Source of the DNA: a virus
Strand: one strand, 5' to 3'
DNA: 20,885 nt
IMG/VR virus record: IMGVR_UViG_3300020190_000428
Span: 1-20,885 of that record
The notes under the pieces are model-generated. The model saw only the letters and a list, made by a program, of their open reading frames with translations, was not told the DNA's origin and did not search any database. The position numbers and the translations under genes are program-made. This document shows, piece by piece, positions 5,319 through 14,345 of the stretch. Every line of letters starts with the position of its first letter. Position 1 is the stretch's first letter.

Positions 5319-7619
5319 TTATCCTTTAGGAACTTGAGAATATAACTGACCTTGTACCTGACCAGTTAATGAACTTAACTGACCTTTTGCCTGACCAGTT
5401 AATGAACTTACCTGACCCGAAACTGATTGTAATTGACCTTTAACTTTATCAGAGGTACTTTTTAAAGCATCTGCCGCGGCTTTATTTATATTTGGAGCTT
5501 TTATTTTTACAGTTTTAATACGTGGAGTACTCGGTGGTTTTGGTATATTTGGTTTAGGCATACCTTTTTTAACCAAAGCAAGTTTACCAGCCGCGGCACC
5601 AATAGCACCTGTAGCTCCACTTATGGCACCACCTACTAATCCGCCAGCTCCGCTCACTAAACCACCGGCAGCGCTGCCAACACCACTTACTAAACCACCT
5701 GCTGCGCCACCAACACCACTTACTAAACCACCTGCTGCGCCACCAACACCACTTACTAAACCACCTGCTGCGCCACCAACTAATGGGATTTTACTTAATG
5801 CACCGCCAACTGCACCGGTTACTCCACCAACCACACTACCCGCTGCACCCGTTACTCCACCTACCACACTACCCGCTGCACCCGTTACTCCACCAACCAC
5901 ACTACCTGCTGCGCCAGTTACTCCACCAACCATACTACCTGCTGCGCCAGTTACTCCACCAACTAAACTACCCGCTGCACCCGTTACTCCACCAACTAAA
6001 CTACCCGCTGCACCTAATACACCACTTGCAGCACCTTTAGCTTTACCAATTAAACCCCCAACTGATTTTGCTAGTTTTGAAGTAGAACCAATAACTCCTG
6101 TTTTAGGGTCAACGAATTTATCGTTACCAGCGATATCTGCGGGTGAAAATTTGTTTGGATTCCAGTTTTTACCTAACCCATCAGCTTTAGATTTAAGTTT
6201 ATCAACAGCCTTACCTAACGATTTGCCCGCTAATAAACCAACTCCCGCACCTATTAAAGCACCTTTTTTACCACCCGCCAATGCTCCTATACCCGCGCCT
6301 AATGCACCACCACCCAATGAACCTTTAACGCCGGATGATAGATTACCTAGTATATCGCCGGCAGATCCACCAATACCACTTACTAAACCACCTGCTGCGC
6401 CACCAATACCACTTACTAAACCACCTGCTGCGCCACCAACACCACTTACTAAACCGCCTGCTATACCACCAACTAATGGTATTTTACTTAATGCACCGCC
6501 AACTGCACCGGTTACTCCACCTACCACACTACCTGCTGCACCAGTTACTCCACCAACTAAACTACCCGCTGCACCCGTTACTCCACCAACTAAACTACCC
6601 GCTGCACCCGTTACTCCACCAACTAAATTACCTGCTGCACCAGTTATTCCACTTGCAGCACCTTGAACTTGACCAATTGCACCACTTGCAGCACCTTGAA
6701 TTTTACCAATTGCACCACTCGCAGCACCTTGAGCTTGTTGTATTGCTGAACCCACTTGAACACTAGGCGTAGCCTGAGAAACTGCATCTGTTGCAGATGT
6801 AGCTGTAAGACTTTTAACTTCTTGTGTTGGTAATTTTATATTTGGATTATCTACGGTTGGTGCTTTATTTGTTATCCCGGTTATAGTTTGTGTAGGCGGA
6901 CCCGGCAAAGCTGGTTCAGGATCACTTGGTAAATTAAAAACCGATCCGAAATCTTTACGAATTTCTTGATTGCCGGCTTTAGCTTTTTCTTTAAAACTTT
7001 TATAAACATCAATTAATTCATTATATGTATCTCGTTGTGTGTTTACATAACCACCCGTCGTAGTTTTACTAAAAAGAAGTCGGGTTTTTACAGAAAATTC
7101 GCCGCTTAATAATTGTAGTTCAGCAACTAATACTTGATTACGCCAAATTGAAATAAATTTATAATTGTTTTTTATAGCTGCACTTATAAAAGCTTTATCA
7201 TCACTGGCATATTCTTTTTTAAACCAATCTCTTTCAGATGTCTCCGCTAAAATTAAAGTAAAAGTTTTTGATTGATCTGGTTTATCGTTTTCTAAATCGT
7301 AATTCGATCTAATAATCAACGGACTAACAGATAATGGATCTCTACCAAATGCAGTATTAATAGTTTTAAACGCGTTAGGATCGCCAATAGGAATATTTTG
7401 TATATTATTTACATTATTTTTAATTTCATCTGGTAAATTTGAATATTTTACATGGTTTTTTAAAACATCCAATAAATCGCCAACTAATGGTACACCATCA
7501 AAAAAAAGAATTATAGAAATATCATTTGTGTCATTTATACTCTTAACAGGTTTTTTACTGGATTGTAAATTACCTAAAAGATCGACTGTAGGATAATCAA
7601 AAAATAATTCTTTTGCCAT
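5319..7619 (-). CDS. Gly/Ala-rich 11-residue-repeat virion protein next to the baseplate hub
   Basis: A 766-residue protein from the start MAKELFFDYP. The longer frame beginning at 7691 would overlap the hub gene by 71 bases. The chosen ATG lies one base past that gene's stop and has a good ribosome site (GGAGAAC). Residues 1-235 look like a folded alpha/beta domain of unknown family (ISIILFFDGVPLVGDLLDVL; TFTLILAETSERDW; FISIWRNQVLVAELQLLSG). Residues ~260-320 are a Pro/Thr/Gln linker. Then come two copies of one module: tandem GAAGSLVGGVT units, GAVGGALSKIPLVGG, then tandem AAGGLVSGVGG units (about 327-421 and 536-660). Between the modules sits a glycine-zipper-like stretch (ALGAGIGALAGGKKGALIGA). 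The tail is basic with Pro-Lys runs and SSLTGQ repeats. The Gly/Ala composition suggests tight helix packing, membrane insertion or a polyglycine bundle. Position between the hub and gp25 suggests a baseplate, hub or injected component. No known family could be assigned. Confidence 0.85.
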   Translation of the reverse strand: MAKELFFDYPTVDLLGNLQSSKKPVKSINDTNDISIILFFDGVPLVGDLLDVLKNHVKYSNLPDEIKNNVNNIQNIPIGDPNAFKTINTAFGRDPLSVSPLIIRSNYDLENDKPDQSKTFTLILAETSERDWFKKEYASDDKAFISAAIKNNYKFISIWRNQVLVAELQLLSGEFSVKTRLLFSKTTTGGYVNTQRDTYNELIDVYKSFKEKAKAGNQEIRKDFGSVFNLPSDPEPALPGPPTQTITGITNKAPTVDNPNIKLPTQEVKSLTATSATDAVSQATPSVQVGSAIQQAQGAASGAIGKIQGAASGAIGQVQGAASGITGAAGNLVGGVTGAAGSLVGGVTGAAGSLVGGVTGAAGSVVGGVTGAVGGALSKIPLVGGIAGGLVSGVGGAAGGLVSGIGGAAGGLVSGIGGSAGDILGNLSSGVKGSLGGGALGAGIGALAGGKKGALIGAGVGLLAGKSLGKAVDKLKSKADGLGKNWNPNKFSPADIAGNDKFVDPKTGVIGSTSKLAKSVGGLIGKAKGAASGVLGAAGSLVGGVTGAAGSLVGGVTGAAGSMVGGVTGAAGSVVGGVTGAAGSVVGGVTGAAGSVVGGVTGAVGGALSKIPLVGGAAGGLVSGVGGAAGGLVSGVGGAAGGLVSGVGSAAGGLVSGAGGLVGGAISGATGAIGAAAGKLALVKKGMPKPNIPKPPSTPRIKTVKIKAPNINKAAADALKSTSDKVKGQLQSVSGQVSSLTGQAKGQLSSLTGQVQGQLYSQVPKG
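5641..6014. repeat. 33-bp tandem repeats, module copy B
   Basis: In-frame 33-bp repeats inside the Gly/Ala-rich gene. On the coding strand there are six GAAG(S)(L/M/V)VGGVT units, the fixed block GAVGGALSKIPLVGG, then four AAGGLVSG(V/A)G units. Adjacent units differ by only a few bases, mostly at third positions, so the array is recent or kept homogeneous by recombination. The unit boundaries respect codon phase throughout. Confidence 0.9.
6357..6641. repeat. 33-bp tandem repeats, module copy A
   Basis: The second occurrence of the same module, nearer the N-terminus. It has four GAAG(N/S)(L/V)VGGVT units, then the identical GAVGGALSKIPLVGG block and three AAGGLVSG(V/I)GG units. The shared order of parts in copies A and B shows a duplication of the whole module followed by unit gain or loss (4+3 versus 6+4 units). 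Confidence 0.9.
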
Positions 7620-7620
7620 A

Positions 7621-9300
7621 TTAGTTCTCCAATTCAAATTCAATTTGTACCGGACCTTCACGACGATTTCTACCTTTGAAATCACCAACAACGCCTTCTC
7701 CCGTAACTGTATTTATTTCAACTGGATCTTTACACTCACCGCCAGATCCCGGTGGTTTAACGCCGTTACTACCAGGTGCATATCCACCGCCTGTTAAAAA
7801 TACTCTTCTACTTAGATTTTTGTGTAAATTGTCTCTTAATAGTCTTAATTTAATTTGTTGTACTGGTATTTGTGTTTGATCTGGTACAGCATCATTTGTA
7901 TTTTCCGCATTAATTTTGCCAGCATCTTCGTGACCGTGTGGATGTGGGTGTACATGATGATACCAATGTACGTGATCCAATAACCAGTTACACAAATCAT
8001 ACAACCAATCTACCGTTGTTTGACCTAATAGTGCCGGTTCGTTTGTTTCTCCATATTGACCTAAGAATATTTGTGGAGAATTTATACACGTTGAATTGTT
8101 TGTAGTTAATACAATTTTATCATTCGCGTCAACGGTATATTCATTATCAGTTACGACACTATAACGTTTCTTACTAAAGTGAAAAGTTTCTGCAAATCTA
8201 CTACTCAATATTAATCTATCGGTGTTGAGTACAACTTGGTCACCGGCCAATATTGGAAATCTAAAAACGGTTGAACCTGGTGGATTAAACTTTGTTTGTT
8301 CTTCTGTTGGTTCACCTTTCTCTGTATTACCAAATATACTTTTATAAACCGTTGTTTTCCAACTTGAGACGGTATAACCGGATGTAATATAAATCGAAGA
8401 ACCGTCGTGATTTATATCTTCCTCAATCTGTCCTCCATAATTCTTTTCAATATTAGGTACAACGGGGATTGGAGGCAATTTTGGATGTATAAGTTGAGGA
8501 GCATCTTGTGCTAAATTTCTCTGACGATTACGAATAACGATCATCGGATTGCCGTTACCACCATCACTGCTGTCTGGAAATAAATTATTATCTAAAGCAT
8601 AAGATGGATAAAACCCTTTATCATTAAATCTACTATTATCGTAAGTAGACATTCTAATCGATTGACCATTTCTACTTTCAATCACAGTATCACCTTCGTA
8701 TTTTTTAACAGACCTTATATTTTTATTAATTATAAAATAGTCGCCTAAATAACCTTTGTTGCTGTTTTTAATATTTCTCGGATTGGACAAATAAGATTCA
8801 TTTTTATCGGAACGTATTTGTTTTTGATTTTGAGAAAATGACAATTTTAAATTTTGTCCAAAATCTGCATTATTATTGATAAAATTACGTGATGACAATA
8901 CATTGGCGTAATAAAATGTACCATTAATTTCATAAACTAATACGTTTTCATTTAATAATGGTATTTGAGATATGTCTCTATTAAGAGGTAATGCCCACGG
9001 TAATTTATCTAAACTTACACTTGAGTCATCCAATTTTCTAATTTTAATACGACCTACGTAACTATAATCAATATCATTCGACTTTGCAGCTTCGTCTTTG
9101 TAATTTACAGGTGTGTTTGAACTGTCAATTTTCTTTGCGGTTTTAAAATATGGGTGATTTTCGTTGAAAATTGCATCAACGACGGTTGCAATAAAAACTC
9201 CTACTTCACTTTTCAAACCACTACTACCTATTAATCTGTCGTTTTTTGCAGCAGTAATACTAGTGAGATTTGAATTAATATGACTTTGGTTTGTAATCAT
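7621..9300 (-). CDS. 5: Baseplate hub/spike protein, gp5-like OB-fold, no lysozyme domain
   Basis: A 559-residue protein resembling the gp5-type hub of aquatic T4-like phages. The N-terminal ~170 residues hold an OB-fold-like region (IATVVDAIFNENHPYF; YVGRIKIRKLDDSS; LPLNRDISQIPLLNENVLVYEINGTFYYANVL), as in gp5/gpV/VgrG spikes. The later part has short beta-strand repeats. At about 440-460 is a His cluster, LLDHVHWYHHVHPHPHGHED, comparable in kind to the His motifs of phage spike proteins. The C-terminus is Gly/Pro-rich and ends EGPVQIEFELEN. T4 gp5 carries a lysozyme domain between OB-fold and beta-helix; nothing like it is seen here, so cell-wall cleavage must come from another protein or be unnecessary. 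It overlaps the 115-residue gene by four bases (ATGA). The gp5 assignment is from motif and context, not alignment. Confidence 0.75.
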   Translation of the reverse strand: MITNQSHINSNLTSITAAKNDRLIGSSGLKSEVGVFIATVVDAIFNENHPYFKTAKKIDSSNTPVNYKDEAAKSNDIDYSYVGRIKIRKLDDSSVSLDKLPWALPLNRDISQIPLLNENVLVYEINGTFYYANVLSSRNFINNNADFGQNLKLSFSQNQKQIRSDKNESYLSNPRNIKNSNKGYLGDYFIINKNIRSVKKYEGDTVIESRNGQSIRMSTYDNSRFNDKGFYPSYALDNNLFPDSSDGGNGNPMIVIRNRQRNLAQDAPQLIHPKLPPIPVVPNIEKNYGGQIEEDINHDGSSIYITSGYTVSSWKTTVYKSIFGNTEKGEPTEEQTKFNPPGSTVFRFPILAGDQVVLNTDRLILSSRFAETFHFSKKRYSVVTDNEYTVDANDKIVLTTNNSTCINSPQIFLGQYGETNEPALLGQTTVDWLYDLCNWLLDHVHWYHHVHPHPHGHEDAGKINAENTNDAVPDQTQIPVQQIKLRLLRDNLHKNLSRRVFLTGGGYAPGSNGVKPPGSGGECKDPVEINTVTGEGVVGDFKGRNRREGPVQIEFELEN

Positions 9301-12187: not shown

Positions 12188-12673
12188 TTAATTAATTTTT
12201 ATTCGTTTAGACTGTGGTATAACAGGTTTTACCTTTTTAAGTACAACCTTTAGTAAACCGTTTTCAAACTTAGCTTCAGGTTCTGCCGTATCAATTACGT
12301 CGCCTAGTGTAAAACTACGTTTAAAACTACTGTGTTTTAGTTCTCTACGTATATATCTACCATCAGTCTCTTTATCATCAACTGATTTTACTTTTTGACC
12401 ACTTATCGTAAGTATATTTTCTTGTAAATCTACATTTACTTCGTCTTTTGATAATCCAGGTATTTCCGCTAAGATTTCTACTCTGTCCGAATAATCAACT
12501 ACATCTACACGTGGATAACTTTGTTTTTCAAAGAAACCGACGCCCAATTCTTTGGTAATTTCGGGGAATTGTGATGTAAATACCTCATCGAATAATTTAT
12601 CGAAGGGTGCTAAAAATTCATCGCGGTCAACGTGACGCAATGCAAACGGACTACCATATTTAATAACTGCCAT
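12188..12673 (-). CDS. hsp20: Small heat shock protein Hsp20
   Basis: A 161-residue ATP-independent chaperone of the alpha-crystallin family, which holds unfolding proteins in large oligomers. The N-terminal arm is residues 1-50 (FALRHVDRDEFLAPFDKLFD). The alpha-crystallin domain runs from about 53 (YPRVDVVDYSDRVEILAEIPG) through DEVNVDLQENILTISGQK to the family signature AKFENGLLKVVL (about 136-147). The C-terminal I-x-I anchor is RIKIN. Length and domain order are normal for the family. A good ribosome site (AAAGGA) precedes the ATG, unlike most genes here. A 131-base upstream gap with a sigma-70-like promoter and a terminator downstream suggest a single-gene unit. Hsp20 genes are common in aquatic T4-like phages. 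Confidence 0.96.
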   Translation of the reverse strand: MAVIKYGSPFALRHVDRDEFLAPFDKLFDEVFTSQFPEITKELGVGFFEKQSYPRVDVVDYSDRVEILAEIPGLSKDEVNVDLQENILTISGQKVKSVDDKETDGRYIRRELKHSSFKRSFTLGDVIDTAEPEAKFENGLLKVVLKKVKPVIPQSKRIKIN

Positions 12674-12804
12674 ATATTTCCTTTCTTTTAATAATTCAAT
12701 TTGAACTTATTAACCTAATAGTCTCATTATGAGCACTATAGTAGATAATACACACATACTATCTAAAAATATATAGTATCAATCTATTTAGAAATGTCAA
12801 TTTA
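12674..12804 (-). promoter_or_regulatory. Intergenic region with candidate sigma-70-type promoter for hsp20
   Basis: On the minus strand, TTGACA (12800-12795) is followed by the AT-rich block GATACTATATAT (12780-12769), giving -10-like hexamers at spacings of 16-19 (best by eye TACTAT or TATATA). Inverted repeats flank it: ATACTAT/ATAGTAT around 12757-12779, and CTCAT-T-ATGAG at 12722-12732. A host-polymerase (early) promoter for hsp20 with a possible operator is plausible. The -10 match is imperfect. Confidence 0.42.
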
Positions 12805-13158
12805 TTATCTATGTTTTGAATGATAACGAGGACCGTTTCCAACCCAAACAACTCCACTTACAGGTGAACGATAACAATCAGAACTATAATAATTTACAAC
12901 AGGAACCGTACAAATAGGTTGTTGTACAATAACAGGTGTGGTATGAACCACGTGTCCAACAACTGGTTGTGTATAAACAACATGACGAACTATAGTTGGT
13001 TGAACATAAACTACGGTTGGTACACATACTACCGGCGGTGTATAAACAGGAACACAGTTACCGATTCCTACCGATACACTCCAGCTAAAATTAGCGGCAT
13101 TAATTGATGCAGCACAAAAAGTGCTGATTACAGCTACTAACATTAATATTTTTTTCAT
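12805..13158 (-). CDS. Secreted Val/Pro/Thr-rich protein
   Basis: A 117-residue protein with a clear Sec signal peptide: MKK, a hydrophobic core (ILMLVAVISTFCAASI) and a likely cleavage after NAA or ANA near residue 21-22. The mature part begins ANFSWSVSVGIGNC and continues in a Val/Pro/Tyr/Thr low-complexity region with VYTPPVV-, VYVQPTIV- and VYTQPVV-like repeats. It ends in a Tyr/Ser/His-rich basic tail (GPRYHSKHR) with Cys residues at about 34, 45, 82 and 95. Such proteins are typical of cell-envelope proteins in environmental Gram-negative bacteria, and unusual among virion genes. It starts two bases after the S74 fibre gene stop, so it is probably cotranscribed with the fibres. It may be acquired from a host. 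Function unknown. Confidence 0.8.
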   Translation of the reverse strand: MKKILMLVAVISTFCAASINAANFSWSVSVGIGNCVPVYTPPVVCVPTVVYVQPTIVRHVVYTQPVVGHVVHTTPVIVQQPICTVPVVNYYSSDCYRSPVSGVVWVGNGPRYHSKHR

Positions 13159-13160
13159 AT

Positions 13161-14345
13161 TTAATTTAATTTACTTTTTAATTCATCAACTTCTTTTCTA
13201 AGTTGTTGAATTTCTTGAATTAAGAAAGGAATTAATGATGTGTATTTTACAACTTTAAAACCACCTAAATCTTCCTTAATCAAATTTGGAAGTTCTTTTT
13301 CAACTTCTTGTGCTATTAAACCGAAATCTGGTTTATTATTAGTATTCCAAGTAAATGAGACAGGTCTTAATTTTGCCAATGTTTCATTCGCATTTTCTAA
13401 TGTTGTGATATTAGATTTTAATCTTTCATCAGATGATCCATATGTAGAAAACGCTACAATATCACCTTTTACATCTAACTGTCCAGAAGCGCTTACATTC
13501 AATAATATTGCACCACCGGCCGTAGTTGTTGTAGAAGTAACAGCCGAATTACTACCAGATGTAATTCTGAATGGATTTTTTCTAGCAATAGTTAATGCTT
13601 CACCATATGAATAAACCCAAGGTGTTTTTGTATTTGGATTGCTAAATGCTCCATCAGAATTTTGTAATTTTGATGCGGTTAAATGTAAATGTAATATAGC
13701 ATTAATACCTAGTGGAGTACTAAAACCACCTATACCCACGTTATCATAATATGTTCCTAATATTGTACTACCACTTAAACCTGGTTGGAAATCGGCCGTC
13801 TCGGTACTATCATGTTGACCACCACAATATAAAACAAATGAATTATTTAGGTCTTCGGTTTGGGTTGTTCTAAAATATGTTTTGTATGGTTGACCACCAA
13901 AACCAACGAAGTTTTTAAACGAAGCACTTCTAAAATAAATTTTTTTAGCTAGGGTAGCTTCAGACAAATCAATTGTTTTTTCAAACTTTACATTATTATT
14001 TGAATTTAGAATGTCAGATCCACCGGTATTACCTGATATATCGTCAGCATTTTTCCAAATAGTGTAATAGTTTGTTGTGCCTGTACCAAATTTTATATAA
14101 CTTGCTGTTTTTGCATAACTCGCTGTTCCTATTAATTCACCTTTTAAACTACCAGTAAATGAACCTGAATAACTACCAGTACCATTAAAAATACTACTAA
14201 AAAGTCCGTTTACTGAAGATCTCTTGGAAATAAGAGTTGAACCGCTTTGTATCACCATTACAAAATCTTTTCGAGTTGGTGTATAAAGTGGTAATTGACT
14301 TACTTTTATTGTTTGTACATTTAGACTATTACAAGGACTTGCCAT
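13161..14345 (-). CDS. Tail fibre protein with C-terminal S74 intramolecular chaperone
   Basis: A 394-residue fibre-like protein. The N-terminal ~35 residues (NVQTIKVSQLPLYTPTRKDF) resemble the start of the 410-residue fibre upstream and are probably the virion-attachment segment. Residues about 45-80 hold SGSF/TGS and TASYAKTASY repeats. A beta-rich receptor region follows. The last 100 residues are a Peptidase_S74 domain: DIVAFSTYGSSDERLKSNI, LRPVSFTW, DFGLIAQEVEKELP and a terminal coiled coil (IQEIQQLRKEVDELKSKLN). S74 domains trimerise the fibre and then cut themselves off. The catalytic Ser305 and Lys310 in SDERLK are both present. It sits in a run of three fibre-like genes and has a promoter-like element before its start. 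Confidence 0.9.
   Translation of the reverse strand: MASPCNSLNVQTIKVSQLPLYTPTRKDFVMVIQSGSTLISKRSSVNGLFSSIFNGTGSYSGSFTGSLKGELIGTASYAKTASYIKFGTGTTNYYTIWKNADDISGNTGGSDILNSNNNVKFEKTIDLSEATLAKKIYFRSASFKNFVGFGGQPYKTYFRTTQTEDLNNSFVLYCGGQHDSTETADFQPGLSGSTILGTYYDNVGIGGFSTPLGINAILHLHLTASKLQNSDGAFSNPNTKTPWVYSYGEALTIARKNPFRITSGSNSAVTSTTTTAGGAILLNVSASGQLDVKGDIVAFSTYGSSDERLKSNITTLENANETLAKLRPVSFTWNTNNKPDFGLIAQEVEKELPNLIKEDLGGFKVVKYTSLIPFLIQEIQQLRKEVDELKSKLN

Follow-up and report, generated by a model that had tools for sequence, protein, structure and literature searches.

What a small secreted protein is doing between the tail fibre genes and the hsp20 gene of a phage, and whether it came from a bacterium, are the questions raised by this locus. 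The window considered here is the whole stretch of DNA analysed, 20,885 nucleotides of virus record IMGVR_UViG_3300020190_000428. The initial annotation had described a secreted, Val/Pro-rich open reading frame at positions 12805-13158, two bases from the stop codon of an S74 fibre gene, and this description was confirmed, the strand being the minus one: the gene comprises 117 codons with its ATG at 13158, two bases past the fibre stop, and the plus strand across the same positions is interrupted by several stops. With the 20 other genes of the window as training set, the codon log-odds were +18.6 for the sense frame, the other five frames scoring -53 to -110. The synonymous preference was 0.094 per codon, to be compared with 0.03-0.13 for the training genes (the best antisense frame being also slightly positive, 0.04), and the GC3 of 0.16 is similar to that of the other window genes. 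A spurious ORF was ruled out by the codon log-odds and by the dN/dS values reported below; the ORF is real and coding.

The anatomy of the product was also found as annotated, namely a signal peptide, a low-complexity mature part of the VYTPPVV type and a basic end. A Sec/SPI-type signal peptide is predicted for residues 1-21 (13096-13158, minus strand; MKKILMLVAVISTFCAASINA, followed by ANF), as judged by eye from a Lys-Lys pair, a hydrophobic core (11-residue mean hydropathy of up to 2.7) and an Ala at the likely cut, and it is kept in the homologues. The sequence lacks a Sec/SPII lipobox, Cys15 having Phe at -1. The mature protein of 96 residues contains 27% Val, 11% Pro and four Cys, has a pI of 9.1 and ends in PRYHSKHR. 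A V/Y/P/T/Q repeat region spans residues 38-82 (12913-13047, minus strand) and is followed by a C-terminal block, residues 83-107 (12838-12912, minus strand; CTVPVVNYYSSDCYRSPVSGVVWVG), whose conservation is seen from the homologue alignment and a low dN and which bears the invariant pair Cys83/Cys95. Structure predictions from the single sequence and from a five-row alignment gave mean pLDDT values of 35 and 37, that is, no confidence.

The gene is bordered upstream by the gene of a 394-residue tail fibre protein with an S74 chaperone domain (13161-14345, minus strand; PF13884, E=1.2e-14) and downstream by hsp20 (12188-12673, minus strand; PF00011, E=1.1e-17), whose promoter (TTGACA ... TATATAT; 12769-12800, minus strand) begins a few bases past the stop of the secreted gene and is found in relatives both with and without the insert. 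Since the stretch from this promoter to hsp20 is similar whether or not the insert is present, the secreted gene sits exactly between the fibre stop and the hsp20 promoter. An hsp20 scan gave 131 relatives, the best 80 of which were used for slot counts. The slot was empty in 51 of these best 80 loci, a large gene of 383-962 codons, taken as a fibre gene from the N-terminus of its product, stopping 116-137 bp before hsp20. Among the same 80, a glycosyltransferase-like gene adjoined hsp20 in six loci (with PF11397 in the two tested), two other ORFs in one (L036), 17 had an unrelated context, on four the contig ended too early and one (L003) was the same virus. Many of the hsp20 contigs are near-duplicates, with 31 distinct leaders among 59 compared. 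The first scan found the gene on one other contig only, IMGVR_UViG_3300020220_000725, which represents the same virus, with 12 mismatches over 9247 bp and none within the ORF. Among the loci scanned, the gene thus occupied the fibre/hsp20 slot in this virus only (two contigs); a composition scan of 86 loci revealed no second ORF resembling it, and 50 records of relatives contained no match to it beyond the same virus. Accessory genes may be accommodated at the border between fibre and hsp20.

Several further features were observed around hsp20 and elsewhere. The two glycosyltransferases tested are of the GlcNAc type (PF11397) and lie in the same place upstream of hsp20 (L055, 3938-4870, E=3e-67; L060, 3568-4863, E=6e-73), and similar ORFs occur in L056, L059, L061 and L062. 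At 12674-12800 of the window (minus strand), hsp20 has a conserved promoter of its own, and its leader comprises about 95 nt with three hairpins followed by the AAAGAAAGG SD. Across 27 relatives, hairpins 2 and 3 were 96.9% paired with 22 two-sided changes, compared to 5 in column shuffles, and sliding the hairpins gave 29-52% pairing with 0-6 two-sided changes; pair types were not above the shuffles (8 versus 9.4), five single folds had z values of -1.3 to -4.1, and Rfam held no match to the leader. It is possibly a regulatory leader of the phage small heat-shock gene. A search of bacterial genomes with hsp20 returned nothing informative. On the unrelated contigs L065, L071, L075 and L076, a lipoprotein-like ORF of about 140 residues (e.g. 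MKWLFLVVLLVSGCSDS...) stands about 400 bp upstream of hsp20. L085 (6261-8153) and L084 (1279-3171) encode a 630-residue fibre-type protein with the C-terminus CPAAWQL...VIGHN, which appears Hint/intein-like by eye and had no Pfam match. The window itself contains, at 5319-7691 on the minus strand, a 790-residue ORF with long GAAGSLVGGVTGAAG-type repeats and a GC content of 41%, the window standing at 31%.

Searches with the window protein against Pfam, PHROGs, NCBIfam and PDB, by tblastn against phage and plasmid sequences and by viral and bacterial pattern scans gave no relative at first. The NCBIfam Shiga toxin B model, matched at E=0.19 over residues 1-22 only and with 11.8 of 203 bits, was rejected as a signal-peptide resemblance. 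A degenerate DNA pattern for VVYTQPVV matched eight viral contigs, four of which encode, by translation, a window-type protein (this virus, L089, L091 and L094); the L096 product is an exported VYVQP protein of another kind, and the other three matches are unrelated frames. The L091 and L094 proteins, of 129 residues, differ by one residue, and these and the L089 protein share 58-60% identity with the window protein, with FSW, Cys83, Cys95 and DCYRSPV.G..WVG retained. No further contig was found by a scan with the alignment of L089 and L091/L094, and when the FSW stretch of the N-terminus was used as a pattern, this virus alone was hit. The family so defined, family B, has a signal peptide, FSW..S.G.G and C[TI]xPVVNYYxxDCYRSPVxGxxWVG, a pattern found in the window protein, and its contigs besides this virus's two are L089, L091, L094 and L133. 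A sister family, family A, is laid out as a signal peptide, GDREWATVGKVLTG..., (VVYVQPQP)n and a His-rich part, with a GD[RK]EWA... motif, many members ending in HHYHHHHH. The signal peptide is retained in both families, and a profile comparison aligns them (98%), it being noted that low complexity and a common signal peptide inflate such scores.

Nothing over the curated cut-offs was obtained when family members were compared with Pfam, PHROGs and NCBIfam, and small exported low-complexity phage proteins would thus be easily missed. The PXPV repeat proteins (PF12778), bacterial Val/Pro-rich exported proteins, are similar in having a signal peptide and V/Y/P/Q repeats; the family A protein L104 matches this model at E=0.11 with 12.9 of the 23.1 bits required, under the curated cut-off, and the window protein gave no match to it even at E up to 10. 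A tblastn search over 50,697 phage records gave no match for the family, a negative weakened, like the other tblastn ones, by the low-complexity filter of BLAST, and the literature searches listed no paper on this exported-repeat family. Judged by their sequences, these proteins constitute an undescribed family of small exported phage Val/Tyr/Pro/Gln-repeat proteins carried by dozens of related freshwater phage contigs; the family is new and its broad kind, that of small exported phage accessory proteins, is known.

The family B homologues are encoded upstream of a MoxR-like AAA ATPase/vWA pair and not behind fibres. A MoxR scan yielded 131 relatives, and in 44 of the best 80 an exported V/Y/P/Q-repeat protein was encoded at most 1.6 kb upstream of MoxR, 40 of family A and four of family B (L133 and L101, L102 and L166, which are the contigs of L094, L089 and L091, respectively). 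The crude signal filter missed five carriers, which were recovered on reading the ORFs of 21 filter-negative loci, the other negatives being those of the filter. Within the best 80, the family was present in 43 of the 44 loci with a MoxR identity to L094 of at least 77% (exception L128) and in 1 of 36 below this value. A family A scan gave 56 loci, all with a 209-codon gene upstream; MoxR is next downstream in 54 and the other two are cut off at contig ends, and neither hsp20 nor the window's fibres were near the family A gene in any of the 56. MoxR lies about 0.1-0.3 kb from the family A gene. In L215, L221 and L222, which are the contigs of L131, L115 and L132, the distance is about 1.1 kb, the two such gaps looked at contain no sizeable sense ORF, and the gap is perhaps an insertion. 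A family B profile found 12 of 50 MoxR records, four true family B members at E<1e-49 and eight weaker matches (6e-11 to 5e-4), six of which are family A carriers by contig and the other two by place.

The two loci could be compared within one phage in a few cases, most records being fragments: MoxR was found in 2 of 50 hsp20 records (that of L032 and Microcystis phage Mel-JY01) and hsp20 in 1 of 50 MoxR records. On the 132-kb contig of L032, hsp20 lacks the insert and MoxR is preceded by a family A gene; on the 134-kb contig of L011, whose slot is also empty, a family A gene (L200) stands at the end, ahead of the expected MoxR position; and the contig of L137 carries a family A gene and an hsp20 63% identical. 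The Mel-JY01 MoxR is 50% identical and no secreted ORF was seen in the stretch read. Because the slot is empty in most hsp20 loci and the relatives keep the family at MoxR, two of them with an empty slot, the window appears to hold a moved or extra family copy tied to the fibre gene.

The two locations also differ in their apparent expression signals. In the relatives, a promoter-like site (TTGACA/TATAAT-like, at least 10 of 12 bases, within 80 bp upstream) was present in 21 of 35 distinct upstream sequences, 0.9 being expected from shuffles, and AAGGA or AAAGG stands ahead of the ATG in 25 of the 35. A terminator-like hairpin with a T run follows the gene in 33 of 36 distinct downstream sequences (0.4 expected; the exceptions are L215, L221 and L222), backed by an alignment of 14 and by tool scans of L102 and L194, and TTGAC occurs within 110 bases downstream in 33 of 36; all these counts come from related sequences and hence are not independent. 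At the MoxR locus, family B genes have upstream scores of 10, 9 and 7 of 12, and the hairpin follows all three. In relatives, the gene therefore looks like a single-gene transcription unit, and the sigma70-like promoters of these units suggest early expression there. The window copy has no promoter-like site above 7 of 12, no SD upstream and no hairpin downstream. Given the 2-bp gap to the fibre stop and the absence of an own promoter and SD, it presumably relies on the fibre transcript and is co-expressed with the fibre. The earlier proposal that the protein is made late may hold for this copy but is not general for the family, which in the relatives forms a unit of its own at another locus. 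CutF-like nascent-chain sensors share with the window protein a Sec signal, Cys residues, a Pro-rich sequence and a place upstream of another gene (as described in the accessible part of PMC9973294), but the window protein has no DUF2946 match; a sensor of this kind was rejected, as 33 of 36 relatives have the hairpin and a new TTGAC promoter before the next gene, and control through a shared transcript and stem-loop does not apply in the window, where hsp20 has its own promoter.

Comparison of the window gene with its three homologues gave dN of 0.33-0.44 and dS of 1.3-2.1 (saturated), with dN of 0.16-0.24 in the C-terminal block, values that cover the whole divergence, beyond the time since the move alone. 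Judged from these rates, the family is under purifying selection. Repeat number in family A varies even with identical 900-base MoxR segments (L118 and L121, 66 versus 72 residues after NPP). The initial annotation had suspected a bacterial donor, to be sought in the genomes of the host group. This found no support: the homologues found are all in viral contigs, and GC3 and codon use are phage-like, which also led us to reject a recent bacterial gene as far as a scan of bacterial genomes with exact peptide patterns of the window protein can tell. That scan gave no match, although the same method, a weak one, missed the 58-60% identical homologues in viral contigs. By its baseplate protein, the nearest named relatives of the virus are Microcystis phage Mel-JY01 (42%), an uncultured 484-kb phage (37%) and Flavobacterium phages (35%). 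Canonical TTGACA/TATAAT promoters would be unusual for a Bacteroidota host.

Regarding function, the idea of a secreted, non-structural protein of envelope type was upheld, the signal peptide being kept and the relatives lying away from structural genes. We tentatively prefer, as possible rather than probable, a phage envelope effector that would lower adsorption or injection by further phages. The protein would leave the cytoplasm of the infected cell through Sec, lose its signal peptide to signal peptidase I and, on maturing outside, form a disulfide within the conserved C-terminal block; it would then stay in the periplasm or at the outer membrane. By binding or covering components of the envelope, its repeat region and basic tail might make adsorption or injection less efficient for further phages and for progeny on debris. 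With the gene placed directly after that of the fibre, the phage would make blocker and adhesin together. The closest precedents are Llp of T5 and Cor of T1, phi80, N15 and HK022, superinfection-exclusion lipoproteins of known fold that target FhuA. In the accessible parts of the two sources (PMC9586334, PMC13164509), these are small exported phage proteins that contain a Cys pair; their genes directly adjoin those of receptor-binding or fibre proteins and are carried by some phages but lacking in close relatives. Since the genes of Llp and Cor neighbour receptor-binding genes, the window protein, with its 2-bp distance to a fibre gene, is a fair candidate for the superinfection block proposed initially and is perhaps, by this analogy, an exclusion factor; its MoxR-locus relatives, however, including the 56 family A loci, are not beside fibres. 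It differs from Llp and Cor in having no lipobox, in its Val/Pro repeats and in belonging to a family found mostly at another locus. Lacking the lipobox, it is not a member of their group but may still work alike. Rtp45 of phage Rtp, an exclusion lipoprotein of LptD with a disulfide-bearing beta hairpin (PMC12685063, accessible part), is likewise small, periplasmic and disulfide-bearing, as would be the window protein, but it is a lipoprotein and the likeness is one of description.

The retained signal peptide, a dN well below dS, more so in the C-terminal block, the single gene order of all 56 family A loci and the repeat number that shifts beside identical MoxR segments are in agreement with an envelope effector. 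The own promoter and terminator of most relatives point the same way, to a gene expressed early like those of T5 Llp and T1 Cor, and the fibre gene adjoining the window copy recalls the Llp/pb5 and Cor/tail-fibre clusters (as far as the accessible parts of the sources go). By contrast, the three known proteins are all lipoproteins, the relatives lie beside MoxR/vWA, exclusion proteins act early but the window copy, if transcribed with the fibre, would be made late, and both structure predictions are without confidence. Such an association with MoxR would suit a partnership, in which the cytoplasmic AAA/vWA pair acts on a target by remodelling or metallating it, and the exported protein deals with metal or stress on the outside. 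MoxR follows in every family A locus not cut off, it matches phrog_249 'porphyrin biosynthesis' (E=2e-25), and family A is often His-rich, family B being Cys-containing and basic; yet the hairpin and new promoter separate the two genes in 33 of 36 distinct sequences, many lower-identity MoxR loci have no secreted gene and, within the 20.9 kb, no MoxR accompanies the window copy, and we regard this partnership as unlikely. A more general surface protein of the infected cell (a stabiliser, a coat or an effect on adhesion or grazing), not aimed at other phages, would have the same anatomy, and low-complexity Val/Pro repeats of variable copy number would need no specific receptor. None of the results distinguishes it from superinfection exclusion, and we also doubt it, the place behind the fibre then being meaningless.

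The fibre operon itself invites two further explanations. An aid to lysis or release, as proposed in the initial annotation and exemplified by a spanin-like protein, would be Pro-rich, exported and, here, co-transcribed with late genes, but there is neither a lipobox nor a C-terminal membrane helix, no i-spanin partner was recognised alongside and the relatives have early-type promoters; we consider it very unlikely, and an o-spanin in particular was rejected, the neighbours being a fibre and hsp20. A virion or fibre-assembly protein, which the operon would also suit, seems very improbable in view of the signal peptide, of relatives that keep the gene apart from structural genes and of the 51 empty slots among the best 80 of 131 loci. 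Finally, occupation of the slot in a single virus, by a gene with no own promoter or SD, could indicate a passenger without lasting function; the intact frame, the phage-like codon use, the dN well below dS against three homologues and the conserved C-terminal block make this quite improbable.

Returning to the envelope effector, a broader version of it, which we hold to be rather doubtful, is that a freshwater T4-like phage lineage carries a single-gene cassette whose exported repeat protein would coat or jam the envelope as a new, non-lipoprotein exclusion factor of fast-changing repeat number, the coding part of which became hitched to a fibre gene in one phage. If the protein is indeed an exclusion or envelope factor, it would add a non-lipoprotein type to those known, testable by expression of a single gene, and the fibre-linked copy would show that such a gene may switch both its timing and its partner.
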